From assembly GCA_963693285.1 (NCBI GenBank), contig OY848924.1, forward strand, positions 2,718,144 through 2,782,143: a DNA stretch of 64,000 bases. Reading direction: 5' to 3'. The DNA is from Xestospongia muta. Its lineage: Eukaryota; Porifera; Demospongiae; Haplosclerida; Petrosiidae. The notes under the pieces are model-generated. The model ran no database searches, was not told where the DNA came from, and was given only the letters and a program-made list of their open reading frames with translations. Both the position numbers and the translations under genes were made by a program. Below, in pieces: positions 36,711-64,000 of the stretch; within the stretch, counting starts at the first letter, position 1, and the number at the start of each line of letters is the position of its first letter.

Positions 36711-36988
36711 CTACTGTTTTTTTTCTAAATATTTTTCATAAATTTCTGCTACATTATTCTCTCTAATAGCTTTTAAAGCAACTAATAAATTCCTCCTTGT
36801 TGCATTATGAGCTTTCTCCTGTATCCATAACTGATACATACTGGTGCAGTCATGACATCCCCTTAGTTTGACACTGTCTAGTTCTAGTTGCACACCCAAC
36901 AGATTATACTCTGCAGTTCTAGCATATTTAGTCACTTCTTGAATTGTAGGTTGTTGATCCAAGAGATCACCTCCTTCAACCATATTAC
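36711..36988 (-). CDS. Terminal Death-domain exon
   Basis: Phase-1 exon ending in TAG. It reads VTKYARTAEYNLLGVQLELD, then VKLRGCHDCTSMYQLWIQEK and LLVALKAIRENNVAEIYEKY. The W-I and A-L core of a Death domain is kept, although the first helix is weak. An intron of about 1.5 kb separates it from the UPA-like exons. Confidence 0.8.
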
Positions 36989-39900
36989 CTAATATGAAAA
37001 ATGAAAAAAATACAATTTAGTATTGATTTTAAAAAATGATTTTTTTTCTTTGTTAAACAAATAATAAGTGTAATTAAGCTATTGATATTAACTTGATGAC
37101 TTAACAAGTCAGACTGTTCACAAAAACTGCTAATAATTCAAAATACAAAATACAAATGTAATATTCATAGTTGGTGGTATCTATGAACAGGAAGTTTGTA
37201 CGTTTGGATTGATCTTTTATAATATAGCTATATAACTGCTGAAAAAAATTAGGTTGAAGCTTCAAGTATATTTAAAGATTAAGTAGTCACACAAATGGTT
37301 ATGCCTGCTTAAAAACATTTTCAAAATTCATTGTTACTTTGATAATCCACAAAGCAAACTGTCAACTGTTATATGTATATGTAATTAGTCATCAGATTGC
37401 ATCATTTATGGTCAGTAGTGTTAGCTAGAATCTGTGTTTTGTGACAGCAATTGTCTATTAAGGGAATTGTCTATACATATTGATGGTTTTAGAGTACTGC
37501 CATTTCTGAAAAGTGTAAGAATTGAACTCATTGAACTCATTGTTATAAAAGGTAAGTAAGATAAGAATCATGTATATATTTGTAGTAGTTACTATTAACG
37601 TCTTCAAAAAATATGGTAGAATGTTAAATAGACTTTAATTAAGTGTGTTAGTAACTTGTTATTATAAAAAAGGAGGTGTACTAATGATTTAATTTGTTAG
37701 AAAATAATCTCCAACTCTCAAGAAATGAACAACACACCTGTGTCTTGTAAAGCATACAAGATACAAGTCTATTTTTCTTTTGTAAAGGGACTTCTACAAC
37801 AAAATGCATTTGTAAGCATACAATGTACATGTACGTGACTTTCTAATACTATATATCTATATCATTATTATGTACTAGGTATGTGTATGCATACACAGTT
37901 ATGTCTTGAGCAACATGCTAAGTACTATAGGTGTAGTTATGGCTTAAGCAGAAGTGTCCTGTTGAGCAAGGAAGTCTTGGTCAAATTCTTAGATCTAAGG
38001 TGTCATTAAGAAACTCTCCTATCAAAAAAAATTGAACTTGACTTTATTTTGATGGGCAAATCTACTGAATCAAACTGTACTTGTGTTTGCATTTTCTTGA
38101 CCACTGTCTTATTGTGACTGGACATTTTTATCATCTCATATCTGACCAGCTAGAACCTTTCTTTGTCAATCACCCTTCTTCCTATACTCCTTGGGATTTT
38201 TCATCATACACTTATAATTGCATTCCTGAATATTGATAAGTGTATTACTGATGTAATTGTAGTTTGTGTATTATTATAAGTGAGGTAGGTCCTTTAGGCA
38301 TATATTTGTTATTACAATGACCTACAAAACTTATATAACACAAACATTACTGGGTTCACTGAAGGTACACAATATATAATATACGTATTCTAGCTTAGAA
38401 TTGAGAATCTTAACAAACACAATAAATTCCCTTGTGCTTAGGCACTTAGCTTAAAAATAATATCATAATGACATTATTAGGAATGCTCAGAATAAGGTTA
38501 TAATTAGGATACTACAAATACAAACACTCACTTTGTAAATTACTGGTCAGTGATCTAGTAATCACAATTTGAGGTGTATTGTCAGGTGATACTTGATTTT
38601 CAATAACTGTAATACCTTCAATTGTTATACAATGTTTGAGATTATTTCTGAAGTCATTTGTTCTAGGATTAGCAGATACGTTTACAGGAATATTAGGAGG
38701 AATAAGACTCCATGACTGATTAAAGTCATCAGCATCTTTCCTGTTAATCTATATCACAGTAATTGAAATGTAAAAACAGATAACTTACAGTACATGTAAC
38801 CTACATATATTTTTCATCAATACCACAATACACACACTCACTCACAAAACACATATCACTTACTACTAGTGGTCTACGTAGAGGTGTTATTTCCCACCCA
38901 TGAACTGCTTCGTCAGGGAATCCTGATAACTTTAAACTCTCTTCTCTATCACACTGTTCTCTTGATGAAGATACCTTAGTACTAAAACAAAATGGAAAAC
39001 TGTCTTCTTCGTCACCAAACTTAGATGTTACTTTTAGAATTACCTATATAAGAAAAAGTAATGATTAAAATAATTATTTAAAACAATCAACATTATTACA
39101 TTAGAATATATGGTATTTTGAACAACTGTGAATCGCATCTTCCATGTTCCTTCATTCACTACTTTGTAGAAGATATAAGCTCGATAGTTGCAGTTGGGAA
39201 CTTTAGTATCTGTATAAAGTAAGTATTGTGTATAATTAATATGTTGGGCTTTAAATAAAAGTTTATTTTATAACACAAAACATACAATTACTGACTCAAC
39301 AGCACTGCTCTAAACATTTTATTCCATACATGTGTTTAATATATCAGTATATACTTACTAGCTGCATAATAATATCCAATAGCACTGCTAACTGCACCTC
39401 CTAGAGCTGCTCCTCCCATACCAAATGTGGCACCACCAACTGCAACACAAAGTACTATAGCTAAGAATGAAAAATCCTTGAGATGTATAGTGCCATATTG
39501 TGAACCAGGACAAAATGATCCTCCTGGTAGGTATTCAAACTTGAAGGGTGGACCAGACTTAGCAACAACAAAACTGAGATATTCTGCCTGTTTCTTATCA
39601 GTAATATTAGCACAATGTTCTAGTTGAACTTTAGCTGGTTTATTGAACTGAGATGAACTAGATATATAACACACTCCACTGATAAGTATGCTATTTTCAG
39701 GAAATTCAAATTTGCTACCCCACAATCCATTAGCGGTAATTTCATATGAACCATCTACTGGTGTGATAACTTGTGCAGGTACTAAAATTTTTAGCCCACA
39801 TTCTTCAACCGATAACTGTTGATATTCAGCAGCACTAAACTTGGAATAGTTCTTCCCTACTATCACCATTCCTTTAAATAGAAATAATAATTAATACATA

Positions 39901-42900
39901 ATAAGTATACATATATAGTACAGTGATTGCTTAATTACAAGAAGATATATCATAATATGATTACTAACAATACCTTCTTTTATTTGAGTTGATTGTTCCT
40001 GTACTAGTTGCAAATTTTCAAGCAGAAGATCTTTACTTTCAGTTTCTTTCATCATTCTTTCTGCAACTAATAATATACCAAATTAAGAGGATAGAAGATA
40101 ATGTACACAGTTACAATAATGTTAGCAACATAATCAGACTAGACTATTTACACAGCTCATATAATGTACAATATCAATTAATAATAGATTAGAATCTAAG
40201 ACCAAATAGTCTCAATAGTAGTCACTATGAAGTCAAGTAATGATAGTCAATGGCTTATTGTAATACCAATCTTTAAATCTAGTCAATAGCTTCCAATGTT
40301 TTATGAACTATAATCAGTTAAGCAAGATAGCTACACAGATAGCTTTATTGGAGGCAAGAAAGCCAATGAGTTATTTCAAAAGAAATGAGGTACTGAAAAT
40401 CTAGTTACCAGCTTCTAAGTAATAAGATTACTTGAAGTCAAATATATTACTTTGAAGTGCAAAAAAGCAAGTGATTTATTTATCTATTCATAAATCTATT
40501 TGATAACAGTTATCAACTTTATAATGTAAAGGAATGTTATCACATGAACATATATGTGACCATAAATACGAAAATGGTACCTAATTATACAAACTACATA
40601 CATGAACTGTGCCATCAAAATAATTCAGACAGAAGGTAAATCAACATTAAGTTAGAATTACCCATCACCCTATTTATTAGAAAACCTATCTCCAAGCCTT
40701 ACCCTATAATTTAAGTTGTTGAAGTTAAGGATGTTGTTATTTGAGAATGTTTAATAATTGTGTGAATTATATGTGCACTCAGACCAAACTAAAATGGTCA
40801 CAGGTATTTCACATACATAAAAACTAACTGCTTACGTAAATTATCACATTTTGTGATTGTTAATACCACAATTGCTAAATAATCTCTATAGTATGTGAGA
40901 AAGCTACTTGCTGAAAGCAAAAATATACCATAATGAATTCATTATTATAAGCCATTTGGCTAAAAAACAATTATAGACTGCTCATGCCTGCATGCTGTCT
41001 GTGCCTATACCTACATGTTGTAAGTGACAACTGGTCCTAACTAAAAATACAAGTGTCCTTATATTTTCAATTTCCTTTAAGATTGTTCACTAATTAAGTA
41101 TCATCATCAGTTAACTCAAATCTACACACACACATATATATAATGATATACCTCTGACATTACTCTCTTGTTGTTCTTGGGTAGACTTCTTAGTTTTAGG
41201 CAAATCATCTAATGTTATGTAAAATAAAAGAATTATATTAAAATAAGTTAAATATTAGATACATAGAAATCAAACACAACATGTATTCCCCACACTATGC
41301 TATGAGTATACTTAAACCACATTAGCTTCATTTACTTTCCAAAGTAGACAGACAATTGATAAAATATTTGTTCATATTTAAGATAATTATATAGCATTGT
41401 ATGTGGTATCAATTAAAAATAAATTCCTTATGTTATAATGTTAGTAACACAGCATGTACATAGAAAATAATTATTTTTAGTTAAAAGATCAATTAATTTG
41501 TCGTCATTACCTGAATTAAAGTTACTATCATGCTTACGTTTACAAGAGCCTGGAGTGGTTTCTATAGAAACAGATGACATAACATATAACTCCAAATACA
41601 AGTATAAAAGTGAGTTAAAATTGTGTATAAAATTATCTGTAAATGTAGATATTATAATTTAACAAGTGTGTGTGTGACATTTAAAAGAATCTACCTAATT
41701 GATCATCATCTGTGTTATCAGATTGTTTGAGCTTCTTTGATGTTGAAGGGGAAATAGATCTCTTACGCTTAGTAGGAGCTGAGTATAGATAAAATCAAGT
41801 CATTGATTAAATGAAATTAAAGGTTTATGTAACACTGTTATGTTATAATGATAACAAGACATATTCACTACCTATTTAGTAAAATTATCTATATTTCATA
41901 AGATGTAGTTATTAAGTATATATAATATGTGAACAGTTAGAAAAATCAGTAAAATATAATACGTTCATATTTGGAAATATCTTTTCTTTAAAACTGAATG
42001 TGTACATTGATGTAATGAACCACTTTTACCAATTATAGTAATAATAAACTTACCATTAACTCTTTGGCTGTCCTCGGTAATAGACTCACTAACACTTTTA
42101 TTAACACTTATATTATGAAGGGCATAAATAATTACTGCTAGGAGTCATTGTATAATCATGTACAGGTTAAATGATATGGATAAAGTAACTTACCATCAGT
42201 ATGCTTATCAAATGTGTTATTGTCAGTTTGTACCACACCTCCTATAAAATTGTAGCATGACAATGAACATGTACTAGTATATATACAGTAAATATGAAAT
42301 ATTTGTTTGTGATTTAACATGTTAAATATTTATATGTTTATAATTATTAGTTTTGTGGTTTTTAGATCACGAACAAAATTTTATGGTTATAACATGCATG
42401 CTTGTGTGTAATTGACCAATCACATTGTTTTAAATGACATGAATGTATCAAACCTCATGGAAAGTTCAATATTAAACCTTATTTCAAATAATGTACTATG
42501 ACAGCTGCTAAAAAGCTATTAGAAAAAAATTGATTTTAATCTTTACTGGTGGAGCATTACTTCCCAACATGGTAATACAGTAAAACAAAGTAGGCTAAAT
42601 ATTGTAGCAAACATTTGTATCATATATAATTATACTTTGAATTTGTCAGCTGGAAAGTCAAGTGAGTTAACTACATTACTGTTCTAAATAAGAATGGAAA
42701 GTGATTATTGACCACCAATAAGGTGTTGAGTAACATTTTAATAAAGCCATTTTAACATGATATAAACTGTTATACACTATGTATATATTTCATTAGTAAT
42801 CAAACCTTACACCTGCAATACTCAAATTCAACCAGTATAAACTTATACCTTGGTGTGTATGTTAAAGTAACATATTATGTACAAGTACATATTAAACTTG

Positions 42901-44195
42901 AGCTCGTTTTAATGCTAAATATAGTAAGTATGTTTGCTTTAAAGTAAATAATATGGTCTACTTTTTCTAATGTATACATTATTTACATAATGACATCAAC
43001 TCACCAGTAATAGTCTTACTACTGTCAATGATAGTTTCAATGCAAATGACAATTTTATTAAAAACTTTTACTGAAACTGGCTCAAATATGCATAGTCTTA
43101 TATCAACATATATACAAAGCCAAGAGTTGAGCCATGAGGCTAATGCATAGTCTTATGTTTAACAAAATGGTTAAGAGGGAGAGTAGTAAAAGAGAAACAA
43201 GATGATATTTGAAAATAAAAATATCCCAACTAAACGTTCTCTGAGAGCACAAGAATCCCAATCTCACTTCTAATAACTTCAGAATGTATTATTTTCCATC
43301 TACTAATAAGAGGTTTCACTGGTCTTATTTAATTTATAGGATAGTTGGTCCTATTAGTAAATTGCATTACAATGAACCCAACAAGCCTCCACTTAATAAT
43401 ACAGGATAATATGCATGAAGATTAGATGTAAATAATACATGTTATAACATATAACAATACTTACTTATAAGATTGGACATATCTTCTTGGAGCTTTCTTT
43501 CCTTAGACACTTCTATAATTATATAGATGGAGTATGTATATTCATTACATACTTACCTAAAGGTTTTGAGCTTTCTTCTTTGAGCATTTTTTTCTTGGAG
43601 CTCTCTTCTTTAGATACTTCTATAATTATAATAAATGGAATATATTTATTCATTATACACTTACTTAATTGTTTTGAGCTTTCTTCTAGGAGCTTTCTTT
43701 TCTTAGATACTTCTATAATGACATAGATGGAATATATTTATTTATTACATACTTACCCAATTGTTTCAAACTTTCGTCCTGAAGTTTTCTTTTCTCTGAA
43801 CTACCTTTCTTTAAAGAATCATGAACTTCTTGACTGTCTGTAATTTTTAAAAAATTAATACTGAATGATCAAACTACCAGCAATAATTAAATCATTTATA
43901 ATTACATGAATATACATACAGGTTATACACTGAGGTAAAGGTTTCTACTGAATTTATCAGACCAAGCACCAAAGGTGTAAGGTTTGATGAGTCAGTAGAG
44001 AAAGATACTGAGTTGTATAACTGAGTTCTATCATGCAACATGCGTGTGAGGATAATAAGTGTTCCTAACTTCCCAGGAGGTTTATATGTAATCCTAGGAG
44101 TGAAACCTACCAGACTACTTATCAAGATCGCTATGACATTTTAAACCTGAAATCAAGACAATGTCATTAGTCAGTTTGCTAGTTTGCTATAAACA

Positions 44196-44231
<36 letters not shown>

Positions 44232-45984
44232 TATACTCAGTTGTAGCATAAATATATCTATATATGTTTCCTTCTTTATTTAGCGTTTTTATAGCATTCA
44301 TATTTAACCTGCAGTAAGGTTGCCTGATATTTTAATCTGTGTTACATCTTTCAATCTTCTAAAATTTTGGCAAATAACATTCCATTAAATAATTTCAATT
44401 ACAGGTAAATTTTTACAGGTATATTGGAATAGTCATTCTTGAATAATTATTTCTTAAAGGAAATCAGAGAAAATTGACTTGTTTCAATCCAGAAATCTAA
44501 GGCATACTAACTCCTTTCACACTAGCTAACAGGTGCATCCAACAATATAATCTCAATGCTGAATCATACAGCTAAGTGATTTTAGATTTAATTTCATTTC
44601 TATTCTTATATGGAACCTATAAGCTGCATGTAAAAAAATCCCAGAAAGATACTTCAAATCCTCATTAATTAAGTAGTCCAAAGGTGTCAACATTGAGCTC
44701 TTTGTTCATAAAAAGACAAGACTTCCATTATAAAACAAAAAAACCAACATGTATATACATAAAAGAATTGAACTATAAATCTCATGGTTAGATCTACATA
44801 TTTTTGCTGTCATACCAACAGAATGCAAATGTAAACCATTAGCACTAACTGCCATGAAATTTCACACTTGAAATAATTGGAAGAGTAACTTACATTTGCT
44901 CAACATATTTACAGCTGCAATCATTTCAAGAGATGATTCTTAATGCTTTAACTTATCGTCAATAGTGTAATAGTGTATCTATATTAAATTTCATAACACT
45001 TTGATTATCTATATATTACAATATACTTCAGATAAAATGTAAAATATTTTTAAAAGAAATGATTATTGTACTCCATAATAATTATGATCTCTTACCAACA
45101 ATTGTCTCTTTGTCATTAGACTTGTCACTATCAGCTAGTGACTCTTCTTCTATAAATTTGAAGAATGGGAATTAAATACACAAAAAAGGAAAAATTTACC
45201 AATGTTCTTAGTTTTGGTGTATACAACTTTCGTTTGTAATTCTTTTTTCATTGCAATAGCAGCATCTTTTTCTCCACAATCCTCAACTGCTTTTGTTAAC
45301 TCTTCTAATGTTGGCTGAGTGGAATGTTGAGTTATCCAGTAATCTAACATTTCTTCTAAGACCCAGTCATGACTCTTGCTTTCTTCATACGAGGACAACA
45401 GCTTCTTTCTATCACCCAGAGGGACATTTAGAAATTGAGCCAGAGATTTCCATTGACAAGATTTAAATCCACACTTGTGAAGAAACAGGAAGGCTTTATT
45501 AGAATTGCACTCTGTGTCAAAGGATTCAGAAATTATAGTATATAACAACTGTATGCTTCATCATAGATCTAAAATATTACTATGCACACATTATGCACAT
45601 ATGACAATAAAACTTCATGCACTGGGACATTAAAAGTCACTATGTTTTGTCATTCAGAAACATTCTTTGGGAATCAAATTTTGGTGCAAAAAATATTAAT
45701 ATCACGAACAAAGACATATAGCCCTTTCTCTACATTACTGATCATTTGTTCACTATGGACCTTTGACCTCTGATTATTACCAAATTACACATATATACTT
45801 GTACATACCTGTGCAACATGCAACATGCGTGTGAGGATAATAAGTGTTCCTAACTTCCCAGGAGGTTTATATGTAATCCTAGGAGTGAAACCTACCAGAC
45901 TACTTATCAAGATCGCTATGACATTTTAAACCTGAAATCAAGACAATGTCATTAGTCAGTTTGCTAGTTTGCTATAAACATACA

Positions 45985-46020
<36 letters not shown>

Positions 46021-49000
46021 TATATACTCAGTTGTAGCATAAATATATCTATATATGTTTCCTTCTTTATTTAGCGTTTTTATAGCATTCATATTTAACC
46101 TGCAGTAAGGTTGCCTGATATTTTAATCTGTGTTACATCTTTCAATCTTCTAAAATTTTGGCAAATAACATTCCATTAAATAATTGCAATTACAGGTAAA
46201 TTTTTACAGGTATATTGGAATAGTCATTCTTGAATAATTATTTCTTAAAGGAAATCAGAGAAAATTGACTTGTTTCAATCCAGAAATCTAAGGCATACTA
46301 ACTCCTTTCACACTAGCTAACAGGTGCATCCAACAATATAATCTCAATGCTGAATCATACAGCTAAGTGATTTTAGATTTAATTTCATTTCTATTCTTAT
46401 ATGGAACCTATAAGCTGCATGTAAAAAAATCCCAGAAAGATACTTCAAATCCTCATTAATTAAGTAGTCCAAAGGTGTCAACATTGAGCTCTTTGTTCAT
46501 AAAAAGACAAGACTTCCATTATAAAACAAAAAAACCAACATGTATATACATAAAAGAATTGAACTAAAAATCTCATGGTTAGATCTACATATTTTTGCTG
46601 TCATACCAACAGAATGCAAATGTAAACCATTAGCACTAACTGCCATGAAATTTCACACTTGAAATAATTGGAAGAGTAACTTACATTTGCTCAACATATT
46701 TACAGCTGCAATCATTTCAAGAGATGATTCTTAATGCTTTAACTTATCGTCAATAGTGTAATAGTGTATCTATATTAAATTTCATAACACTTTGATTATC
46801 TATATATTACAATATACTTCAGATAAAATGTAAAATATTTTTAAAAGAAATGATTATTGTACTCCATAATAATTATGATCTCTTACCAACAATTGTCTCT
46901 TTGTCATTAGACTTGTCACTATCAGCTAGTGACTCTTCTTCTATAAATTTGAAGAATGGGAATTAAATACACAAAAAAGGAAAAATTTACCAATGTTCTT
47001 AGTTTTGGTGTATACAACTTTCGTTTGTAATTCTTTTTTCATTGCAATAGCAGCATCTTTTTCTCCACAATCCTCAACTGCTTTTGTTAACTCTTCTAAT
47101 GTTGGCTGAGTGGAATGTTGAGTTATCCAGTAATCTAACATTTCTTCTAAGACCCAGTCATGACTCTTGCTTTCTTCATACGAGGACAACAGCTTCTTTC
47201 TATCACCCAGAGGGACATTTAGAAATTGAGCCAGAGATTTCCATTGACAAGATTTAAATCCACACTTGTGAAGAAACAGGAAGGCTTTATTAGAATTGCA
47301 CTCTGTGTCAAAGGATTCAGAAATTATAGTATATAACAACTGTATGCTTCATCATAGATCTAAAATATTACTATGCACACATTATGCACATATGACAATA
47401 AAACTTCATGCACTGGGACATTAAAAGTCACTATGTTTTGTCATTCAGAAACATTCTTTGGGAATCAAATTTTGGTGCAAAAAATATTAATATCACGAAC
47501 AAAGACATATAACCCTTTCTCTACATTACTGATCATTTGTTCACTATGGACCTTTGACCTCTGATTATTACCAAATTACACATATATACTTATACATACC
47601 TGTAGTATTCTGTTGGTTACTGCTTTCTTGTTTTAATGATTTGTATATCTCCATGGCAAGGGCTTCATTCTGAACAAGTGGTCCCTTTACAACATCTATA
47701 ATCACCTTCCAAATGACAGGAGTAGCTTTACTATTCGTTTCTATCCATTTCTGAAGGACATGATCAAGTTTCGTTTGATTAGACATGGAGGATTGAGCCA
47801 AACCCTCAAGATAGTTATAACTTATACCAAGATCTAAACCAATACCACGCCATGATGTATCAATATCAACTAACCATTTTAACACACACAGTTTATCAGG
47901 CTTTTCATCTATAGTTTAGAAAGTCGATAATCAATGAATCTAAGTAAGTTATTAGATTATGACTAAAACTCACTTAATTTAGGAAAATCACTCATAATCT
48001 CCTCAACTACTTCTACTTTCTCCTGACAATCATCTATAAATAATAAGGAAACAAGGTATATGTAGTAAAATGTACTAGAACACTTGAATTTAGTACTAAA
48101 TCAACTAATATCTGTACTATGATGTAGTAACAACCACTATTTCCAACAGATGTTTATTTATATCCTGTGCAATCAACACATGCAATGTACTCAATGAAAC
48201 AATATTATAACCTACTCTATAATGTACATGAACAATAGCTAAATAAGCACAATGGTAGATTACTTTTTCTTTTGACTCTCCTTTGCTCAATTCGCATTTG
48301 CCTTAAGGATTTCCGAATATCTTTAGCTACTTCTGGCTCCTTAACAACAGGACCTCTTACAACTTCAATTACATTCTCCCATGTGACAGGTGTAGGTTTC
48401 ATCTTCATCCATCTCTGTAGAATGTCTGTCAGCTTGGTCTCATTTGAGTTTTCAGAGATCCTTAATCCACTAATGAAGTTTTCATCCACTCCAAGTTGCC
48501 CACCAACTAAATCCCACTTGGAACTAACACAAGCTAATAATCGCACAAGATAATGGAGTTCTGGTCTTTTACCTGTAGGCAATGATAACATAAGATATTC
48601 AATATGTCAAAACACATACCTGGATTGCTTTTCAAAGTAATCCATGACATACGTGGAAAATTATTAGTGTCATCAACATGACAATGAAATAGCTGACAAG
48701 AAAGCTCAGTATTCCTTATTAATATAGCAAGATGATCATGTGGTTGTCTACCACATGGACAAAAGAAAGCAATATCCAATTTCATTTCTTTACCAATTTT
48801 CCGCTTCTTTTTGGTCTCCTTGATTGCATTCTCAATGGCTTCCTTGACTTCAGCCTGATCTTCATGACGTTCGCAGTGAATCTCAAAGCAATCTGAAGAT
48901 TCTACCAAACCAACTCTTCCCAGTAATTCATCGTTACGCAATATAATAGCATTGGAGTGCATCTCGGGAGTAGAGTCAGTGTCAAGTGACCACGAAAAGT

Positions 49001-52000
49001 CATTATAGAGCCCACCGTTGTCATCGTCATCGGTAATATAATCTTCACTTGAGAGGAGTTTAACAACCATAGCACAGAAAAAGCCAACTGGAGCACCATT
49101 TTTAAAGTGAAACAGCAATGGAGTGCAACCAGGGCTTGAAAATGGAACTGCCTTCGAAGGATCAATTAAGGGCAACAATGCAGGCATAAAATATCTTTCA
49201 TTAGATGGCTTGCTGCCTGGCAACTTCATTGCTAGTAGAAGATATGTGAAGATATCTAGTAAATCATTTTTAAAATCATGAAACTTGGCAGATATATCTG
49301 CAAACATTTTAAAATGTTTGTGTGAAAACACTTCGCTAGTAATGATGCCAAACTTAGCCATTTCTGGCAAAGCACATGTTCCTCGGCCAACATTAACTTT
49401 ACTGCGTATTTTACATATAAGAACCATAAGCTCATTGACTACTTGAATAAGGCTATAAGGATCAATGAAAACTAGCTTAGACACATTTTCTGGATAGTAC
49501 AAAATTGAGTTAAGGAGATATAAAAATTTTAAAGCACTATTGATTTCTCCTTTATCTAAACCTAACTCAACACCAGAAGATATGCACTCTTCCAATGGCA
49601 GTATACCACAACTGTCACGAGCTTTGTGACGCAGTAGAATTTCATATGCATACCACCTTAATGGAATATTCACTTTAAAAGATTGATTTCTTAATTCATC
49701 ACGAATTTCTTCCATCATTTTCTTAAGGTTATCATCATGCATTTCTTCAGAATCTTGTGCTTTACTGCCATCAACTTCAGATAGAATTTTTCCAGAAACT
49801 GGGTTTTCGTATAACAAATTATCCTTCACACATTGAAAAATCTGTTTAAGTTGACCTTCTTTCTCTTCAATGGTTTCCCTAACCTTTCCTTTTTTTTTGA
49901 GCTCATCATATTTATCTCGATGAGTAGCAATGGTAATGACTTTCAATTTGTCTGGTGGCTTGATTGCAGCAGCAAGACATTCATCACTACTGGTCATATC
50001 CTCTTGATGATTGCTGAAATTGACCATACTTATAAGACGTTTTAAGAGAGTCTCAATGGATAATGAGTACTTACTTACATCGTACTTTTTACCATTTTCA
50101 CATTGTAATTCAGTAGAGGACTGACTAGAGAGGCTATCTGCTAGACTAATAACTAGCATGAGGGCTGATGCACAAGGTATAAATGCTTGTAAAATCTGCT
50201 GAAATTGGATTTGACCCCCAGAATCAATAAAGTAGAGCCAGTCCTTGTACAATGTTAATTTGCCAGTCTGGGAAGAAGCATTACTGAGAATATCTGATAA
50301 CTGCTTCACTGCAGTATTACTTTCATCAGCTAGTGAAGATGTCTGAGCCATGCTAGAAGTTTTGCTAAGAGCATGTAATGCTACCACATCATTGCCACTT
50401 TCTTCTATTGGTTGTAAACCAGTTTCTTCCTTGGGATATGGATCAGTAGTTGAAGAAATGATGTTAAGTGTAGTGGGAACAGGTAACTCAACACTCTTAT
50501 CCTGAGCCACCTCTGCATACCTATTACCTTCCTCTTGACTAAACTGGACATTGTTATCTTGTTCATACAGATGGTCACTATCTAGCTGTGTTTCATCAAG
50601 ATTATATTGACTATGATCACCTGTTTCTTTGCTTCTGCTAGGGTGAGTGCCATCTTGTGCTTCATTGTTCTGTTCTACTTCTTTATTTTGTTGTGTCTTC
50701 ATAGCATCATCTTTTTCTATAAGAGACTTAATATCATTTGCAAACATTTCAATAAAGTTATCATCTGTGACCAGTTTCCATTTCTTTTTTTCATCTTGAC
50801 AAAACTGTTGTGCCAAAAAATCTCCAACTACTGATTGTGGGCACTCAGAAAAATCTCTAACTGCTACTTGTGGGCGCTCCGCAATACCAGTACTGGCTAT
50901 ACTATCGTAAAGCTTAGAAAGAATAAGACATTTCACTGAGGTCTTGCCAACTCGAGCGGGACCTTGCACAAGAACTTTAGAAATATTGGCTTCAACTTTT
51001 CCACTACTCTGGATGGCTTTATGAAGATATTGAAAATCTATTTAAACAGAAAACAATCATTTAGCTTATTAAATTCTATTACTTAAAGACATACATTGAT
51101 AAGTTATTCAGCATTAAACATTGTTACATTACTTAACTTGTGACATGATACCATAGAAGTTGAAAGTGCTGATAAGATCCTTAGACTTATAAAGTGAGAT
51201 ACAGAACTATATCCAGATAATGTGCTGACATCACTTTGAACTTCTATGATATCAAGCCACAAATATGTTATTGCCCAACCTCTTTTTATTTGCTAATACA
51301 GAGTGTGACATGACATTTAATTTCTCAATGTAAAGCATTATTCCCAGACAAGCTAGATCCTTCATATTCTGGAAATTATTGCAAGAATGAAGGTTTGCAT
51401 AAATTTTGAAGTCAACATAAGCTCTATGTATAGGTTATTGCCCAACCATTGTTTTTGCTATATACAAACAGTACAAAAGTCATAACAGTAACTAACCTAT
51501 TTTCGTCTGAGCTTCAGTAAGATCTTCTTGACCATCTACAAGAAATGATTTAAAATGAACATAAAATTTGTCAATGTATGTAATAGAATCCAATGCAAAG
51601 TATTATATTATATTATGTTCATAAACCAAACTATAACAAGGATATGATCCTTGTTAGTCATTTTTCTGCTAGTCCACCCATTTCCTTAATGCAAAATATA
51701 TATAGTGCTATATATAGTCTGTATGTCATGTGACAAGTACATGACATAATATGTGAGTCAGCCATGAATAATTTACTAAGAATTAAAGAGTGACAGCTAA
51801 GACTCTTCTAACCCACTCTCAAGTGAGATGAGGGTTTATTTATACATTCTTGTCAGGTGTACTAACATAAATTAGGAACGTATTTGAAAATATAATTGCA
51901 CAATCACTATTAAATTTACAAGTTATCATAACATAACCCTTAAGAGCATTGTCTGCTAATTTAATCACTCATATCTTTTTCTAATTCTCTGATTGAAACT

Positions 52001-55000
52001 ATTTGTATGGCCATGTAAGAACTATAAGAATAGTTGACTGCTTTTTACTACTCACACAAATGCCATAAGTGTTAGTAGAGCAACAAGCAAGTGCTCATGA
52101 ATTTAGAAGTTACTTTTTCAGTGCTAATGTATGATCAATTTACTCTATTACAAACATATGATTAACAATTTCATTACATTGCAAATTTCACTCAAAGCTC
52201 ACCAGTAGTCTGGAGATTAGTACTTTTAGTCAAATCTGTGCTTCCTTCCACTTTTTGAGTTTCTATGAGGACAAGATGATACAAATAATTAGCTGACAGA
52301 AGCAGTGTTTTTGGATTTAAGGAGAAACTTTAACCAAATTTAACCAAATTTATTGTCTTTTTAACTATTGTGAATATAATGTTTCTATTATCACTAAAAT
52401 CATCAAATTTTCTGAATAAAGCTACAATCTCTAAACATTTTAAAGAATGTAGTTTACTACAACACATAATATAAGCAAGCATAAATCATAGCAGGTTTGT
52501 ACTACATCTTCACTATTATACAATGACAAATTGATGCTACAAAGCCTGTCACCAATATAATGTATAGAAATTATGTCCATCATGTGAAGTGTCATTGTCT
52601 GAAGGATATGTAACCGAGTCTAACTCTATGTTATAAAATTATATAAGTTATTATTATTGACTACCATATCTACCAATTGTATCTGTATCAGTGAAAGAAC
52701 CTTTAGGAGTGGTAGTACCTAGTATTGTCATTATAACAAATTATATGTAAGTATGAAACCTTTGGTCAGAAATGTCTTTATTTACCTGATGCTTCACCCA
52801 CTAAAGTGCTTGTACTGGTCTCTATAAAAGTATATGTAAGTGAGGCTACATTTAATAGTCACATATATATATATATATATATAGGCTCTTCATTGGTTGA
52901 CATATAGGTTACCTGTTGTATCTATATCCAAAGAAGGATTAACAGGAATAGTGGAAACAGGGCTGTCAGGACTCATATAGACATCAGACTCTAGATGTAA
53001 TATAATATCATTAAATAATTACATAAGACAATTTCATTCAAATTACCTGGCATTACATTTGACGGAGTGGAACTGACTGGTAAGGAAAGATTCGACACTA
53101 TTATATCATTGAAGATTTAAAAGTAATAATAACAAAAATGGTAATGCTAAGTTTCCATACCAGCTGCAGCCTCAATGTCTTGAATAAGTCGATTCTCATT
53201 TATGCTCTTAAGAGCCTCAAATAAATCAGATCTCTTTGCATTTCCTCCATGTAGCCACTCAACTAACATGTCTTTACGAGCTGGCTGAGGTTGATAGTAA
53301 TTAGCTTCTTTGATATCCTTAATTACAACATCTTTAACACCAAGATGAATACCCAATATTTCCCAATTGTGAACCTCTTTTACAAATTTTATTAAAGCTG
53401 AGAGGTGACATTCATCTATGAGAGAGTGAAAGCAAGCATAAATCATAGCAGGTTTGTACTACATCTTCACTATTATACAATGATAAATTGATGCTACAAA
53501 GCCTGTCACCAATATAATGTATAGAAATTATTTCTTTAAAGTTGTAATTCCATGTGTCCAGGTTATCAATGATTACACTAACTATATACACTAACTATAT
53601 ATATATATATTTACTGACTTAGTGGTCCATCAGGTATAATAGAGCTAACAGAAATTATAGATGAGTTTCTCCCTAAAGTAACCAAAATATAAAATATATG
53701 AGTACTTATTTTCTAAAAACGTTTACTTCTAGTATCCGTAATTTCACAAATGGTATCAGCAGCTGGTTCTACAAATAAAAAAATGAATGATATTCATTTA
53801 CAATTATAATTTACAAAGTTATTTACCTAGAGGTCCATCATGTGAAGTGTCATTGTCTGAAGGATTTGTAACCGAGTCTAACTCTATGTTATAAAATTAT
53901 ATAAGTTATTATTATTGACTACCATATCTACCAATTGTATCTGTATCAGTGAAAGAACCTTTAGGAGTGGTAGTACCTAGTATTGTCATTATAACAAATT
54001 ATATGTAAGTATGAAACCTTTCAGAAATGTCTTTATTTACCTGATGCTTCACCTACTAAAGTGCTTGTACTGGTCTCTATAAAAGTATATGTAAGTGAGG
54101 CTACATTTAATAGTCACATATATATATATATATATATAGGCTCTTGATTGGTTGACATATAGGTTACCTGTTGTATCTATATCCAAAGAAGGATTAACAG
54201 GAATAGTGGAAATAGGGTTGTCAGGACTCATATAGACATCAGACTCTAGATGTAATATAATATCATTAAATAATTACATAAGACAATTTCATTCAAATTA
54301 CCTGGCATTACATTTGACGGAGTGGAACTGACTGGTAAGGAAAGATTCGACACTATTATATCATTGAAGATTTAAAAGTAGATTTACTATTTACTTACTT
54401 AATATTCTGTGTTGTGGGGAAGTAGCCTTAGTTAAAGTTATAACTAAAGTAATAAATATGGTTACACAAAGAAATTGTACTAGGTGAGTTACTTGATGGC
54501 ATATCTGATGTAGAAGAGCCTGCAGACAATGTTCTGTAACCTATTAAAAGTTATGAAATAAGATGTATTGCATAATGTTTTATGCTATACCAAATTGAGG
54601 TCCATCTGCCGATAATTTGCAAGGATGAGTTAAATTTTCTCCTGAAAATGAACAAAGCAAAATCAATTTCTTTATTAGTGAAATGCAGACTATGTTATAA
54701 CCTCTTCTTACCAGTAGATGATGTATCTGATTGGACACTGGATGCTGATGTATTTCGTAAAAACTCTATTAATAGATAAATAATAAAAAATGTAAATTAA
54801 TAACAATGTCTATACACAAATTTATTCAATTTGTTATAAAACCTTTTTAGCAAATCAGTAATATTATTTACCTTCATGATGTGATTGATTGTGCTCCATT
54901 GCAACAGAGACTGATGTTGAATCTACAGATAATAAAAGATTACTTTCTAAAATTTGTATACAATGAATTTTTAATGTATCCTTAATAATGAATATACAAC

Positions 55001-58000
55001 ACTTACTAGTAAACCAGCAGCTTTGTCTACAATTAGTTAAAGGCACTGATGGAAGTTCTGTCTCAATGCTACATCCAATAATAGGCGGAGTCTTCTTGAG
55101 CGATATAGTTACTGGATGCATCTTGATACCAGTTTCTTTAAAACGGTGTTTCAGTTGGCATGGTACAGTCGCCATACAGTCCAGTGCAAGATTGTCATAT
55201 GCCAATATTTTAGCACAGGATGACACAGCTATTTTTATTATTTCATGTAGAACAGGGCAATTCTCAGTCAGCCCAGTATAATACACCTCTATCCAATTGA
55301 AAGTGTCAACCAATAATATCGAACCTACTAGATCTTCTGAGTAGAGTTTAACTGCATATCTAAGCTGCCTTGGAAAAGGTGGAGAACGACTGTCCAAGGA
55401 AAATAGTGGACTTTCCTTTCTGTTGAGCAGTGCTACAACTACAGCAGGAAACACCCCCTAAACACCAGAGAAATACTGATAATGGCAACATGCATCATTA
55501 TAGTAATTACCTGAGGTACCACTTTGTTCTTGAATGTGATGACCATAGGGTCACAAGACTTTAGAAAAAAAGCTTTGTCTTTTATGCTAAGCTGACTTGG
55601 TGGCAACACAATTGGAAGAAAATATCGCTTAACTTTATCAGTAGAAAAAAGAGGAGCAACAATGCGAAGATATTGAAGCAGTTTTAGAAATTCAGGCTTT
55701 GTAAATAGCAAAGGAACAAAAGGAAGAGATAGCTTATCGAGTAAAGATTCTTGAAATACCCCATTCTCTCGAAGTAGTTTTTGGGTTTCAGGACTTAATA
55801 TTTGTCCTGGTGAGAGAACATCTTCCAGTAAGTCAACAAATGAGATCCGTATCAAAGCTGAAAGCATATCTAAAAGGTATTGAGGATTAGTGAAAATAAC
55901 ATTCGAAAGAACTTTAGAGAAATACAGAAGCAATGTAAGGGAGTCCAAGTAGTTCAAACAATTCAACACATCGTTTCTGTCCATTCCTAACTTTAATCCA
56001 ATAGCATAGCAAGAATCAAGCGAAATAACTCCATGTTCACTGTGTGAGGACTCTTCTTTTAAGCATATTTCAAACATATACCAACGTACTGGTATTGGAA
56101 CGGGAAGACTAACATTTTTCTTAGACATGATTTTTTCGCGTGCTAAAGCTGATATTTTCTGACGATTTTTAACACACAAATTATTGACAGGGAAAATGAG
56201 TTCTTCAGTTGCTTCGTTAAAAAATATAAGATGATCGCGGTAGTCTTGAAGAACTTTTAGAAGCTGCGAGTTTTTCTTTTTTAAAGATTCATAAGCTAAG
56301 CCTTTCAAACCATTTCTTTTGTCATTGCAAGTACCAACCAAAAGAAAATAAGGTTTGGAAGCTTCATTTACAATTCCTTCAGTCTTGTTAGCATTTTTTG
56401 AAGCAGCTATAGAACGCACAAAATGCTCTATAAGCTGTAGATTGGTCATTTGCAACTGGTTAGGCTGATTTAGTACCTTTCCTTCCAGAGAATAGCAAAA
56501 GTTAGGCTTATCAGATAGGTTTTCTGTTAACTTTGTGACAATAACGTTGAGTATGTTATGCCGTAAAAAAGCTCGAGAAATGTCAGCAAATTGGGGCTGA
56601 CCACCACTATCTAAGAGATGGATCCACGTTGCTTTGTGGAGTTCTTCTGACTTAAATGAAAGCCGTCTTGCAAGAGTATGCACCATCTCTTTTGGGCAAA
56701 AATCCATATCTGGTTCAAGCTTAGAATGTAGTGGAGTATCATCACTAAGATTGAATACATCAGAAACAGAGGAAGAGGGACTGTCAGGGTTCTCCCTATT
56801 AGGAAAAGACTCAGGTCGCAATGGGAAATGAGCTGTTGGCGAAAACCCATCTTGTGCAATAGTTGTCGATATTGAGTTCTGACGTTGTGTAAATTGACTC
56901 TGAGAAGCAGAACGAACTCGTGAATCTGTCAAACTATTAGAAAGAGAACTAAAAGAAAAATGATGTGTTGATCTAGCCAAAGGTGACTGAAAGCTTTCTG
57001 TGATTTCGTGTTCTTGTATAGCATCAGATAGCATCTTCATTAAGTCTGGCCCAGTTACACTGACCCAGATTTTTCCACTATCCCTTTCAGCTACTCTTTC
57101 AATGGCACGAATAGGTCTAGTTGCCAAAGCTGTACTGTTGTGAACTTCAGGTGGAGGCCAATTAAATAAAAGATACTTGAAAGCTGTCTTTCCGACACAT
57201 GGTGGACCCATTATAACTAACTTTATGTTAGTGATATAGACATAGCCTTTTTTGAGACCTCGTGTTAGAATGTACCGACATTCTAAGGGAAAATAAAACA
57301 AACTTATCATAGATAAATAGGAATATTAAGACAATATAGTTCTCTTGTATGAGCCAACCAAGCACAAAATATGTACTGACATGATAAATAAAATGACAAC
57401 AGCTTACACCCTAAAGCCGTATTACAATGTAACATGGATTTATCTATATGGGCTAGTAGTATTACGCTTATATAAAATATCTATGTATGAATACTTGGTC
57501 TATTTATTTTATGCATCTTTTATATCATGCCACAAGTTCATAGATGAAGTAATTATAGCACATACCTTTGTCCATTATTTGGTCTGTTAAAAATCTCACA
57601 ACATCATTGTTACATCTAGTTCGAGCCATGTCAAGGGGACGATCCTTTCTCTATATAAACAAGATGATTGTTACTTTAAATATTAGGAAATGACTTACTT
57701 TGTTGATTGCATATAAGTCTGCATTAGATTGACAAAGAAGTTCCACAACTGGAAGATGGCCATTATTAGAAGCAATATGTAATGGTGTACTAAAATCCTA
57801 AAATGAATTGTAATTATTATAAAGCAAGTTTTAAATTCACATTGTTGTTATTTCATTTAACTCCTGTACAAAGTCCATACAATGTATTACAAACAGTGTT
57901 ATCATAGATAGCTTTACACAAAGATCATATTACAACAGTGATCTTGTTACTATTAGTAATAACTAGCAATCATAACACATATTGTATAATCATGTTTTAT

Positions 58001-60805
58001 ATATATAAGTTAATATATGCTATATTGCCCTCTTGAGTATTATAAATACATGACATTGTGCTTACTCTATCAGTAACATTAGGATTAACGTCAAAACTGA
58101 GTAGTAGTCGTACGATATCAGTGTGCCCTCCTTCTGCTGCTAAATATAATGGAGCTTCCTTGTACTATACAATATAAAAACAGATGAAGCAATAAATTTG
58201 TATATGATTATAATGACGTTACTATATTTGTTATTATAGACAGTGTAAATGATTGTCTTTTATAAGAATTACTAATTCATTGTTATTTCTAAGTTGCTAT
58301 TATTGAGATACAGATCTATCATTAATACATATAGTTTGTATGTGCTAGTACTCACTTTGTTTTTGCTATTGGGATCACCACCAGCCTGTAGTAACAGATG
58401 TACCACTTCAGTGAAACCTCTTTTTGCTGCTGCCGCCATTGGGGTCATTTGTTCCTACAAACATATACATCACTCACAACTGCCAACAATTATTGGAATG
58501 TTACAACCCCGCCCCATCCTTATTAAGACATACTTTGTCAGCAATGTTGGTGTTGGCATTATGAATCAATAACAGTTGTACTACTTCCACATAGCCCTTT
58601 TTAGCAGCTATATATAATGGTGTTTCCCGGTCCTGTATAAACAGAAGTTGTACCAATGTACATAAACCAATAAGAATGGACAATGACTAATTCAATTGTT
58701 AAACTATGAGCATTAAGGTATAAAGTGAACACAAAACATTACACTATATAAACCTAACCTTGTTTGTGATGCTTGGATCAGCACCAGCTGATAAAAGTAC
58801 TTGTACTACTTGGATGTCACCATTATTAACAGCTTTATGCAAAGCTGCTCTCTTGTACTGTAGAGAAAAGAAACATACTGCTTTGCTATTAATCAAATGT
58901 AAATTTTATAGGGTACAGCATTTATTGCTAACAATGAGTCCTTTATCAAGGTATTTCTCCATATAATTACAGTGAATATTATGTCAATGCAATTGTAATC
59001 ACAGTAACACATAACGTTTTTAATAATAATTTCTTCCTTGTGGACTGCATGCATAATTAGTCCTATTAGATGAGTTATCTAATTAACTGACTGACATATA
59101 TTAACCAAGCTATGTGAACAATTAATTAGTCACATATTTTCTAGGAATTATGACATGTGTTCTAATATAGCTTATTCAAATGGATAGGTGAACAATTTAA
59201 AGCAATTTAACAAATAGTGACTATATATATATTATATTATATTATATAAAATGTATTTGTCATATTCAGTTTTGTAATATTACCCACTATGTATTAAATA
59301 GGAATTGACTTATAAGCACTTACTTCATCCCTTCCATTGATATTTGCTCCATTTAGTATAGCAGCTCTTACTTTTTCAGCATTACCAATCTCAGAGAAGT
59401 ATTGAAGCTCATAGTCCTAACATTAAATATTTAACGAGATAAAAAATGAAATATAGACTGTGCATGGAAAAAATAAATGTGTTTTTACGATTATTATTTT
59501 CATAACTACATACTACATTAATTATACGTACGTTGTGATCAATGACGGATCGTAAAATTCGTACTACTTGTGCATGACCTTCTTCTGATGCAATTTGTAA
59601 AGGTGTCTCATGGAACTATACAATAGAAAAGGATGAATATACTCTAGTATTAGACAGAGCTGACAACATAAGAATTGATAAATTGTTAGTCTAATTCACT
59701 TCTACAAATAATTGGTTATTCTAACTACTTAAATCTCCACGTAGCAATTACAAATTATTCAATTCTTGGCTCTGAGGTAAGTTATGATAAGAACAAAGCA
59801 ACACTATGTGCAGTATGATATGTGTATACTTCTTCATAGTTACATATATGATGTTTATATACAACAATGTAGTAGGAGTGTTTATACATACATTGCTATG
59901 ATGTGCTCAACTTTATAAATGAATACATTATACACTATTGCACATATTTGTGAGGGAGTGTATACTTATCATAGCATTGTTTCAATGCTATCATAATTTC
60001 CACTATTGCACTTTAAAAGGAATTCTGTCAGGGCACAGTATAAGCTATAGTGTAGTCACAAGATCTTAAAATCAATTTAACAGTGATGTATTTCATTCGG
60101 TATTGTTTGATATTATCAAAACCAGGCACGTACTGAATTAGTGATGTTTGGATTAGCTCCACACTTTAATAACTCCTTCACTACATCACTGTGACCTCTT
60201 CTTGCTGCTCTGTGTAAAGGGGTCCACTGGTACTGTAGAAAAAAGTATGTCAAAAGTTGTAAGAGCTATTTAATATAAAACAATCGAGGCATCTCATTAA
60301 CAGCGTGAAATAGATCAGAATTACTGAGATCTACATTATGAGCAGAAAAAGTTTTAAATTCTTTTAAATTTTTTGCCTTAATTGTTTCAGAACAACATTC
60401 CTTGTACATGTGTAATCACAAGACCATAATTTCATTATAATCACATTATCTGCATAATTAACTATAGCCCTTTATTTAATTAAACTCACATTATCTGTGC
60501 AATTAATTTTAGCTCCTTTCTCAAGAGCTTTTTTAACTTTGACAATATTACCATTGTCAGCTGCATCTCGTAATTGATAGTCCTAAAGTATACAAATTAT
60601 GTGGTTTAAAAGATAATATCATATAGAAGGGAATTAGTGTATATATGTGAAATGTAGGTTAGCAATATGTATACAGATACAAATATTTATTACAAATCAA
60701 ACATTTATTTATTACCAAGTCTTACATATAGATCAACTAACATTTAACACTTACCAGATCTTCCTGATTTACACTCTGTATATAAATAACAGCTGTAGAT
60801 GCCAT
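36711..60805 (-). CDS. Giant ankyrin / double GTPase / multi-Death-domain / ZU5-UPA protein
   Basis: 56 exons with AG/GT borders join without a phase conflict into 10,251 bases (3,416 residues) from ATG 60803-60805 to TAG 36711-36713. The order is ankyrin repeats (residues 1-333), GTPase with COR-like region (334-1074), mini-exon linker (1075-1278), Death domain (1279-1363), linker, second GTPase/COR-like region (1467-2272), Death domains (2273-2375, 2396-2498, 2499-2602, 2621-2724), basic mini-exons (2743-2953), coiled coil, ZU5 (2985-3155), UPA-like (3156-3324), Death domain (3325-3416). Roc-type GTPases switch scaffolds and Death domains pair with each other; ZU5-UPA-Death is the tail of UNC5, PIDD and ankyrins. 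A cytosolic signalling scaffold is inferred. The main doubt is whether this is one transcript or two genes split between about 53 and 51 kb; I see neither a stop nor a new start there. Confidence 0.7.
38532..39209 (-). CDS. UPA-like region (three exons)
   Basis: Exons 39100-39209, 38864-39043 and 38532-38748 follow the ZU5 exon in phase. Their order and beta-rich sequence (CNYRAYIFYKVVNEGTWKM, VILKVTSKFGDEEDSFPFCF, HGWEITPLRRPLV) fit the UPA domain that normally lies between ZU5 and the Death domain. The assignment rests on position and general pattern. Confidence 0.65.
39359..40066 (-). CDS. Coiled coil and ZU5 domain with glycine-rich hydrophobic tail
   Basis: Exon 39974-40066 encodes a 31-residue coiled coil (LLLENLQLVQEQSTQIKE). 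Exon 39359-39871 encodes a ZU5 domain: GLKILVPAQVI, then GSYEITANGLWGSKFEFPEN, CYISSSS, KVQLEHCANI and IHLKDFSFLAI. ZU5 domains of UNC5, PIDD and ankyrin fold onto UPA and Death domains and can hold them closed. Autocleaving relatives have His-Phe-Ser at the last strand; here it is Asp-Phe-Ser, so self-cleavage is not expected. About 30 small hydrophobic residues with repeated GxxxG-like spacing (VAVGGATFGMGGAALGG) follow, which is unusual for a ZU5 boundary. Confidence 0.82.
41152..43837 (-). CDS. Array of basic, Lys/Ser-rich mini-exons
   Basis: Ten phase-1 exons: 43757-43837, 43665-43712, 43557-43619, 43465-43512, 43005-43076, 42194-42241, 42054-42134, 41695-41778, 41511-41561, 41152-41208. 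The first four are copies of one another (V-S-K-x-R-K-L-x-E-E-S-S-K). Exon 41695-41778 has a nuclear-localisation-like PTKRKRSISPSTSKK and 41511-41561 has CKRKHD. The stretch separates the Death-domain cluster from the ZU5 region and could be a regulatory tether. Confidence 0.75.
45096..45511 (-). CDS. Death-domain exon plus acidic mini-exon (proximal copy)
   Basis: Exons 45200-45511 and 45096-45149 encode exactly the same protein as 46887-47302, 1,791 bases away. Both copies keep splice sites and phase, so tandem inclusion would work. Confidence 0.75.
46887..47302 (-). CDS. Death-domain exon plus acidic mini-exon (distal copy)
   Basis: Exon 46991-47302 (FLFLHKCGFKSCQWKSLAQF, then LLSSYEESKSHDWVLEEMLD, LEELTKAVEDCGEKDAAIAM) and exon 46887-46940 (EESLADSDKSNDKETIV) are phase 1 at both ends. 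The start uses the acceptor 'gacacag' at 47303, which fits the chain; the open frame extends further upstream. Confidence 0.8.
47600..47908 (-). CDS. Death-domain exon
   Basis: The 309-base phase-1 exon reads LKWLVDIDTSWRGIGLDLGI, then LDHVLQKWIETNSKATPVIW and VVKGPLV. It has the same length and tail as the exon at 48264-48572, so the two are duplicates. Confidence 0.85.
48264..48572 (-). CDS. Death-domain exon
   Basis: The 309-base phase-1 exon reads HYLVRLLACVSSKWDLVGGQ, then LGVDENFISGLRIS, LTDILQRWMKMKPTPVTWEN and a conserved VRGPVV tail before a Lys/Arg-rich end. Exon 47974-48033 (acidic, 20 residues) links it to the next Death domain. Confidence 0.85.
48620..51037 (-). CDS. Second Roc-like GTPase and COR-like region (single exon)
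   Basis: A 2,418-base exon in phase 1 at both ends. It enters through FQYLHKAIQSSGKVEANISK, which leads straight into the P-loop QGPARVGKTSVK, so the GTPase is not the start of a protein. G3 is DSGGQIQFQQI; the G4 region reads THRDK in place of NKxD. A Ser/Gln-rich linker of about 170 residues separates G1 from G3. The COR-like part (IPLRWYAYEILLRH, LPLEECISSGVELGLDKGEI, ILYYPENVSKLVFIDP) and a C-terminal part with FCPCGRQPHDHLA follow. The neighbouring exons on both sides match its phase. Confidence 0.87.
51497..54922 (-). CDS. Array of phase-1 mini-exons encoding a Ser/Thr-rich linker
   Basis: Eighteen mini-exons of 36-78 bases all begin after two bases of a codon and end on its first base, so each can be added or skipped without a frameshift: 54872-54922, 54712-54765, 54591-54641, 54493-54540, 54399-54443, 54302-54352, 54168-54245, 54041-54076, 53932-53976, 53827-53883, 53727-53768, 53619-53672, then after the Death-domain exon 53047-53097, 52913-52990, 52786-52821, 52674-52718, 52203-52262, 51497-51535. 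They encode polar, Ser/Thr/Asp/Pro-rich sequence such as SPDSPVSTIPVNPS, probably a flexible tether suited to alternative splicing. Confidence 0.8.
52574..52625 (-). pseudogene. Mini-exon that lost its donor
   Basis: It matches exon 53827-53883, but the deletion in this copy removed the CTAG-gtaaat donor, so the exon probably cannot be used. Confidence 0.75.
53161..53415 (-). CDS. Death-domain exon (first of six)
   Basis: One phase-1 exon encodes about 85 residues with the Death-domain pattern: LIKFVKEVHNWEILGIHLGV, then IKDIKEA, DMLVEWLHGG and LFEALKSINENRLIQDIE. The W-x2-LG and W-L core positions are kept. It lies between two copies of the duplicated mini-exon cluster. Confidence 0.88.
55007..57282 (-). 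CDS. First Roc-like GTPase and COR-like region (exons 12-13)
   Basis: Exon 55511-57282 then exon 55007-55457. The P-loop is GPPCVGKTAFK (about residues 359-369), G3 is DSGGQPQFADI, and a G4-like TCND follows 'YFLLVG'. Between G1 and G3 lies about 170 residues of Ser/Pro-rich linker. The COR-like part then reads VPIPVRWYMFEICL, SLDSCYAIGLKLGMDRNDVL and LTLLLYF, with a winged-helix look. The second exon carries a C-terminal region (VFPAVVVALLNRKESPLF, DTFNWIEVYYTG) common to this family. It probably binds and hydrolyses GTP as in Roc/COR proteins, although the G4 departs from NKxD. Confidence 0.85.
57566..60805 (-). CDS. Ankyrin module of the giant gene (exons 1-11)
   Basis: Exons: 60755-60805 (start, MASTAVIYIQSVNQEDL), 60490-60582, 60134-60232, 59532-59615, 59324-59416, 58759-58857, 58534-58632, 58356-58454, 58066-58164, 57699-57797, 57566-57650. 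Most are 99 bases in phase 0, one ankyrin repeat each, with clear TPLH.A...GH..VV..LL patterns (for example TPLHRAARRGHSDVV). The last is a half repeat in phase 1, which passes the frame to the GTPase exon. Ankyrin repeats probably supply ligand or partner recognition in front of the GTPase. Confidence 0.88.
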
Positions 60806-63955: not shown

Positions 63956-64000
63956 GTCTATTTTAATTTGGTATAGAGAAAAGCTTGCTCAATTATGGAT

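Follow-up and report, generated by a model that had tools for sequence, protein, structure and literature searches.

The window analysed in this work, i.e. the whole stretch of 64,000 nucleotides from the sponge Xestospongia muta, corresponds to C8:2718144–2782143 (OY848924.1) and was studied in the context of a searched genome of 158 Mb. The locus lies on the minus strand, where two pieces of gene families meet: gene 1, at 60805–53147, and piece 2, at 52262–36711. We have modelled the exons by hand as two phase-keeping chains, comprising 25 exons and 1342 aa for gene 1 and 24 exons and 1929 aa for piece 2; phase played a part in picking the small linker exons of this model, but none in picking the ankyrin, T2 and Death exons. 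The features are the following:

60755–60805, minus strand: first exon of gene 1, with the ATG at 60805; 156 of 160 bases are identical in the paralogue at C8:3.03 Mb
57566–60582, minus strand: ankyrin region of gene 1, ten exons, nine of them phase 0-0; Pfam Ank_2 1.3e-86
55511–57282, minus strand: T1 GTPase module, 590 aa, P-loop GPPCVGKT and DSGGQ motif; divergent Roc/COR-like
55007–55457, minus strand: gene 1 exon immediately 3' of T1 (hand model)
53619–54922, minus strand: eleven linker exons of gene 1, all phase 1-1 (hand model)
53147–53415, minus strand: Death exon of gene 1 with an in-frame TAG at 53149–53147; Pfam Death 2.2e-8, 34.6 bits
52473–53125, minus strand: A', a partial second copy of gene 1 linker exons; it shares 98.1–98.5% identity with 54380–53833 and 53534–53430
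52466–52474, no strand: junction between the gene-1-derived copy (high side) and T2-gene intron sequence (low side), placed by sequence comparison
51497–52262, minus strand: piece 2 linker exons 52262–52203 and 51535–51497, phase 1-1 (hand model)
48620–51037, minus strand: T2 GTPase module, 805 aa, 2418 nt, P-loop GPARVGKTS and DSGGQ motif; copy at C8:339161–341497
47600–48572, minus strand: two Death-like exons (48572–48264 and 47908–47600) and a linker exon; below the Pfam cut-off
46887–47302, minus strand: Death exon 47302–46991 and a 54-nt linker exon, tandem copy 1; Pfam 2.4e-6, 28.0 bits
45096–45511, minus strand: Death exon 45511–45200 and a 54-nt linker exon, tandem copy 2; protein identical to copy 1
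39974–43837, minus strand: nine linker exons of piece 2, all phase 1-1 (hand model)
39359–39871, minus strand: ZU5-like exon; Pfam ZU5 0.0027, 18.4 bits
38532–39209, minus strand: three exons 3' of the ZU5-like exon, the UPA of the preliminary description; no UPA match
36711–36988, minus strand: last exon, Death, with the stop at 36711; 1.3e-4, 22.5 bits

Elsewhere in the window there are an ORF at 29834–30856 on the plus strand, which by eye we take to be a piggyBac-type transposase, another at 25780–26220 on the minus strand, presumably of a MULE-type transposase as judged in the same way, and, at 31559–32199 on the plus strand, an array whose diverged repeat units measure about 130 bp.

The exon content given in the preliminary description is borne out, as the ATG at 60805, the ten ankyrin-region exons, the stop at 36711, the GT-AG borders and the minus-strand orientation are all found, together with two long GTPase-like exons (57282–55511, of 1772 nt, and 51037–48620), six Death-like exons and one ZU5-like exon. 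The ankyrin repeats are strongly supported by the Pfam Ank_2 match, and no kinase is found when the gene 1 protein (1342 aa) is scanned with Pfam. Out of the six Death domains that had been proposed, three exons (those beginning at 53415, 47302 and 45511, one of which is a tandem copy) score over the curated Pfam Death cut-off of 22.6 bits, whereas the other three are at or below it, the last exon falling just short and exons 47908 and 48572 yielding 0.0032 and 0.023, respectively. Of the proposed ZU5-UPA-Death tail, a ZU5 match below threshold (18.4 bits against a cut-off of 21) and a Death match near its cut-off are seen, but no UPA is matched at E up to 1 in a single-sequence Pfam scan of the 339-aa stretch, from which a very divergent UPA could escape. 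Directly after the ZU5-like domain, and within the same exon, there is a glycine-rich hydrophobic stretch (39360–39455) which recurs in near copies (in two of the five compared the alignment stops early), and the F-S pair just before it presumably corresponds to the ZU5/FIIND self-cleavage position.

The two GTPase modules belong to large families. T1 is found at no fewer than 74 loci, the window's own included, and among the loci listed the closest copy is C8:3036739–3038508 (L022), some 260 kb away, with 98% protein identity and a dN/dS of 0.17 in respect to the window; T2 is found at 55 loci or more, the nearest among those listed being C8:339161–341497, with 92% identity, and its dN/dS is 0.44 when the window is compared with L010. 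Judging from these ratios both modules are under constraint, although that on T2 probably predates the junction described below, and hence is no proof of present expression of piece 2. The families to which these parts belong are very large in this genome, a search for Death alone yielding at least 150 scored matches among 1488 candidates. As for their designation as Roc/COR-like, Pfam matches at E up to 1 are obtained for Roc in ten of ten T1 members (best 5.3e-4) and in seven of 18 T2 members (best 0.0028), and for COR-A in one of the ten T1 members (1.1e-4) and two of the 18 T2 members (best 0.0016); the T1 of the window reaches 0.14 for Roc, and its T2 matches neither Roc nor COR-A at this limit. 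T1 and T2 are mutually related (hhalign 99.9%), and profile comparison of each with canonical Roc-COR, carried out on shallow alignments, gives no relation (0.4% and 1.6%). Solved structures offer no match for single-sequence T1, single-sequence T2 or the T2 profile, and the T1 profile and the ZU5 stretch each yield one match at chance level (E 0.96 and E 0.4, respectively). Overall, Roc/COR-like is the best label for T1 and T2, which are candidate rather than established Roco members.

The Death exon of gene 1 had been taken to span 53415–53161, and past this donor there are four codons, G-M-E-T, followed by the TAG; the donor after 53161, which becomes an alternative one, scores 6.2 on our own scale. 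The gene 1 paralogue is inverted in respect to the window and shares with it 95–97% DNA identity from window position 53127 to beyond 64000, so that, on this comparison, gene 1 and its divergent neighbour lie together in a segmental duplication that is inverted and no shorter than 10.9 kb. The neighbour, a plus-strand gene at 61741–64000 comprised within the same duplication, contains a GTPase-like ORF with P-loop and DCGGQ motifs (62963–63955) and, by eye, hydrophobic stretches. The paralogue keeps the TAG, and homology stops 20 bp after it, the 3' flank beyond this point being present in the paralogue and missing in the window. Downstream of the paralogue no T2 is found within the 5.6 kb read; a convergent opposite-strand ORF ends about 300 bp past the stop, and the 298 bp between the two contain no AATAAA or ATTAAA but only variants of these. 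A 775-aa ORF convergent with the paralogue (L033:2659–4986, minus strand) is of RING/B-box/NHL (TRIM) type as judged by eye. In the window, seven AATAAA/ATTAAA hexamers that might mark a gene 1 end lie between 53146 and 51040.

In two T1 relatives, L030 and L031, a donor is found at the same place of the Death exon, scoring 4.0 and 3.4; the L031 model uses it and that of L030 a later donor instead, and both models run on to a second Death-like stretch, which is over the cut-off in L030 (2.1e-5) and weak in the L031 piece (0.12). Of 11 Death exons inspected in the T1 family, five end in a stop with no donor above 3 near the end, two further loci having failed to reach the exon.

Between gene 1 and piece 2 lies copy A', which is devoid of the Death exon and of two linker exons. 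On the low side of the junction the sequence is 75–76% identical to three T2 loci on C5, matching up to 52466, and the DNA upstream of the T2 locus at C8:341 kb matches the window up to 52291 at 95.5%. The fact that a copy with 98.1–98.5% identity abuts T2-gene intron sequence makes the join a young one, as far as can be read from the DNA itself, and it falls between phase-1 linker exons. A second young event, by the same reading, is the tandem duplication at 44032–47620 (about 1.79 kb), whose copies are 99.5% identical and which doubles the Death exon and the 54-nt linker exon in frame. Only in the window is a T1 found within 20 kb upstream of a T2 (one of the 74 T1 and one of the 55 T2 loci listed). 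At C8:6982675–6992743, on the minus strand, a T2 module stands 6.3 kb before a T1, in the opposite order, and nearness alone need therefore not mean fusion. We have also considered whether a Roc–COR–T2 gene was split by the insertion of gene 1; such a simple split is not supported, as the linkers of L051, the Roc–COR gene that comes next in the upstream direction (C8:2.80 Mb), match those of the Roc–COR–T2 gene at 341 kb and then continue into linker sequence resembling window positions 42–43 kb.

The single-gene proposal relied on 56 exons keeping phase from ATG to stop. All frames are in fact connectable, and our two chains can be linked in phase via exons at 53.1–51.5 kb; this constitutes, however, weak evidence. 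Of the 46 internal exons modelled by hand, 41 have symmetric phases, and phase 1-1 is found in 20 of the 23 in piece 2, where every one of the 20 exons from 52262 to 39359 is of this type, so that joining or skipping them preserves the frame. Clearly, such symmetric linkers make fusion easy and, by the same token, frame-keeping poor evidence: if the 53161 donor were spliced straight to the 51037 acceptor, chance alone would keep the phase in one case out of three, and in more cases where, as in this family, linker exons are phase 1-1. Moreover, the exon chainer tends to over-join, as it ran on to 81 exons here, many being micro-exons of spurious look, and in the gene 1 paralogue it passed the stop and entered a stretch with a long opposite-strand ORF. 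Since the chainer also overruns probable gene ends, phase-keeping is rejected as proof of a single gene. With respect to the start of piece 2, no ATG exon with a donor above 4 and matching phase is found in 52470–51037 (0 candidates), while the same search in seven comparison stretches returned 0 to 4 candidates each, with 0 in three of them.

A distinct line of evidence results from what lies upstream of T2 at its other loci. Canonical Roc–COR is found there at five of the 55 loci, at distances of 2.5–10.3 kb, Ras-family GTPases at ten (nine within 1 kb), and NACHT at one, 4.9 kb away; for 38 of the 55 there is no upstream NTPase within 10.5 kb among the matches listed. Comparing upstream with downstream as a control, an NTPase occurs within 1 kb at 9/55 against 0/55 loci, within 5 kb at 13/55 against 2/55, and within 10.5 kb at 17/55 against 11/55; the last control is large because the genes sit in tandem arrays, and the longer distance is thus weak evidence. 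In the C8:6.3–6.7 Mb array the Ras-family match ends 398–579 bp upstream in nine of 11 T2 loci. At one T2 locus (L061, C8:6668501–6675200) two Ras-family stretches precede the module, which by eye look Rac-like (1.8e-36) and Rab-like (7.6e-17), and with other chainer settings the Rac-like part becomes a separate gene while the Rab-like part stays with T2.

At C8:341 kb one open-ended chain contains ankyrin, canonical Roc–COR, Death-like, linkers, T2 and Death, with Roc (4.4e-7) and the final Death (6.6e-5) over the Pfam cut-off and the Death-like part (0.0039) below it. The same order is observed at C5:4.10 Mb, in a single chain of 13 exons over 8.5 kb whose Death-like matches (0.0012 and 0.035) are both below cut-off. 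These one-gene models come from the same over-joining chainer, which at C5:2.54 Mb closes one gene and opens another, with a new ATG, between Death repeats and T2. Broken T2 remains are found at C8:1.43 Mb between a canonical Roc–COR module and T2. In addition, C5:2531001–2539827 (L036) has tandem repeats of about 1.4 kb between its canonical Roc–COR module and T2, the modelled exons of which are, by eye, pairs of Death-like domains. Among 7984 scored candidates in the protein database the sole relative is P0001 (ENA), a predicted protein of 1719 aa with NACHT (1.9e-12) followed by T2 (34% identity over T2); one annotated relative is too few to decide on the gene model.

On sequence grounds, an ankyrin-T1-Death gene directly precedes a T2-Death(4)-ZU5-like-Death piece for which no start was found. 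We interpret this arrangement as a young fusion locus among NTPase/Death genes of a modular, immune-like family, and assign to this reading a probability of about 0.6. That a single gene with two GTPase modules results from it, as the preliminary description had it, is possible but not established: the recurrence of the Death-exon donor in L030 and L031, the missing start of piece 2 and the frequent position of T2 behind an NTPase argue for it, while the in-frame TAG, the near-identical paralogue in which the stop is shared and no T2 follows, the very recent join and a T1-before-T2 order not met elsewhere among the loci listed argue against. A long two-GTPase transcript as a real major product of the locus is, in our view, tentative, with odds somewhat below even, and a two-GTPase protein is plausible for the wider family.

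Alternatively, the two pieces could be independent neighbours, with gene 1 ending at the TAG at 53147, no joint protein being made, and piece 2 either having an unrecognised first exon and promoter of its own or being a decaying, 5'-truncated gene. We regard this as a serious contender, albeit a doubtful one. It accounts well for the TAG kept in the paralogue, with the convergent ORF ending shortly after and no T2 behind, for the T1-family Death exons that end in a stop with no donor above 3 nearby, and for a T1-before-T2 order seen only here among the loci listed; it is less easily reconciled with the lack of a start in 52470–51037, with T2 being an internal module in the models of near relatives and with a Death-exon donor that scores 6.2 and recurs. 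The end signal of gene 1 may have been lost in the window along with the flank beyond 20 bp, which would also speak against separate genes, an argument weakened by the fact that the 298 bp downstream of the stop in the paralogue itself contain neither AATAAA nor ATTAAA. A constitutive 56-exon gene encoding some 3,400 residues, in which two GTPases are combined with six Death domains and a ZU5-UPA-Death tail, is unlikely: its frames can be connected and two-GTPase arrangements are modelled elsewhere, for example at C5:4.10 Mb and C8:341 kb, but it must contend with the in-frame TAG, shared by a paralogue that has nothing behind it, with a very young junction, and with a UPA that is not found and ZU5 and several Death matches below cut-off. 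An even less favoured explanation, which we consider very improbable, is that the tandem copies (52.5–54.4 kb and 44.0–47.6 kb) and the junction are misjoined alleles or copies arising from assembly or haplotype artefacts; the 98.1–99.5% identity of the copies, with one pair exactly at the join, would fit, yet the copies differ by substitutions, A' has deletions of its own, and the models at C5:2.53 Mb contain tandem arrays of Death exons of a similar kind.

If the locus is a young fusion, two products could be formed. The in-frame TAG allows a short ankyrin-T1-Death protein, which would be made when the Death exon is read through to the stop; a long two-GTPase protein would arise when the Death-exon donor is used, or by exon skipping, and is possible because the linker exons keep the frame. 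By analogy with the general behaviour of STAND and Roco proteins, the ankyrin repeats would sense or bind a ligand, the first NTPase would switch or oligomerise, T2 would serve as a gated relay in second place, and Death-fold adaptors would be recruited or assembled by the Death domains. In a broader perspective, T2 might be a mobile second-GTPase module set behind differing NTPase sensors, the window representing one new joint, a proposal whose chances we place just short of even. Its partners would be NACHT, Ras-family GTPases, canonical Roc-COR and, in the window, T1; the symmetric phase-1 linker introns would serve as recombination joints, and one nucleotide switch would feed a second before Death-domain signalling.

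Should these joints be used, the genome would hold a live series of multi-NTPase Death-domain receptor assembly by exon recombination, whose stages would include intact partners, partial copies and a junction with copies about 98.5% identical. Roco-like, NACHT and Ras-type switches in series would then become testable, with a bearing on how large receptor repertoires arise in an animal that lacks antibody-type rearrangement. Even if the two halves in the window belong to separate genes, one would still have to explain why T2 is found repeatedly behind an NTPase.

No two-GTPase animal protein of this kind comes up among the open-access papers listed on Roco and Death proteins in sponges, the Roco family in early animals, tandem Roc–COR, DAPK1-type evolution and ZU5–UPA proteins, and comparison with known systems evidences partial likenesses. 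DAPK1-type Roco proteins have the order kinase-ankyrin-Roc-COR-Death, which gene 1 resembles in its succession of ankyrin, Roc/COR-like GTPase and C-terminal Death; unlike them, it has no kinase, its similarity to Roc/COR is weak and its T1 occurs at 74 or more loci. The ZU5-UPA-Death supramodule of PIDD, UNC5 and ankyrin proteins is echoed by the ZU5-like exon upstream of the terminal Death exon, but in the window ZU5 is below cut-off, UPA is undetected and a glycine-rich hydrophobic stretch follows the ZU5-like part. P0001 shares the position of T2 behind another NTPase in one predicted protein, and differs in that the first NTPase is NACHT rather than T1 and that Death is absent from its Pfam list. 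In brown algae, ROCO genes are described as GTPase immune candidates of LRR-ROC-COR design in which repeated exons of one phase are shuffled, the units being 72-bp phase-2 LRR exons (PMC11378527); in the sponge, by contrast, GTPase, Death and phase-1 linker exons appear to be recombined. For another sponge, Amphimedon, a further study describes a lineage-specific TRADD-N/Death expansion with hundreds of Death-fold proteins, many of unique architecture, and discusses it with immunity and self-recognition (PMC8195603). That expansion centres on TRADD-N, whereas in Xestospongia muta the unit in common consists of T1, T2 and Roc-COR GTPases with Death and ZU5-like parts.
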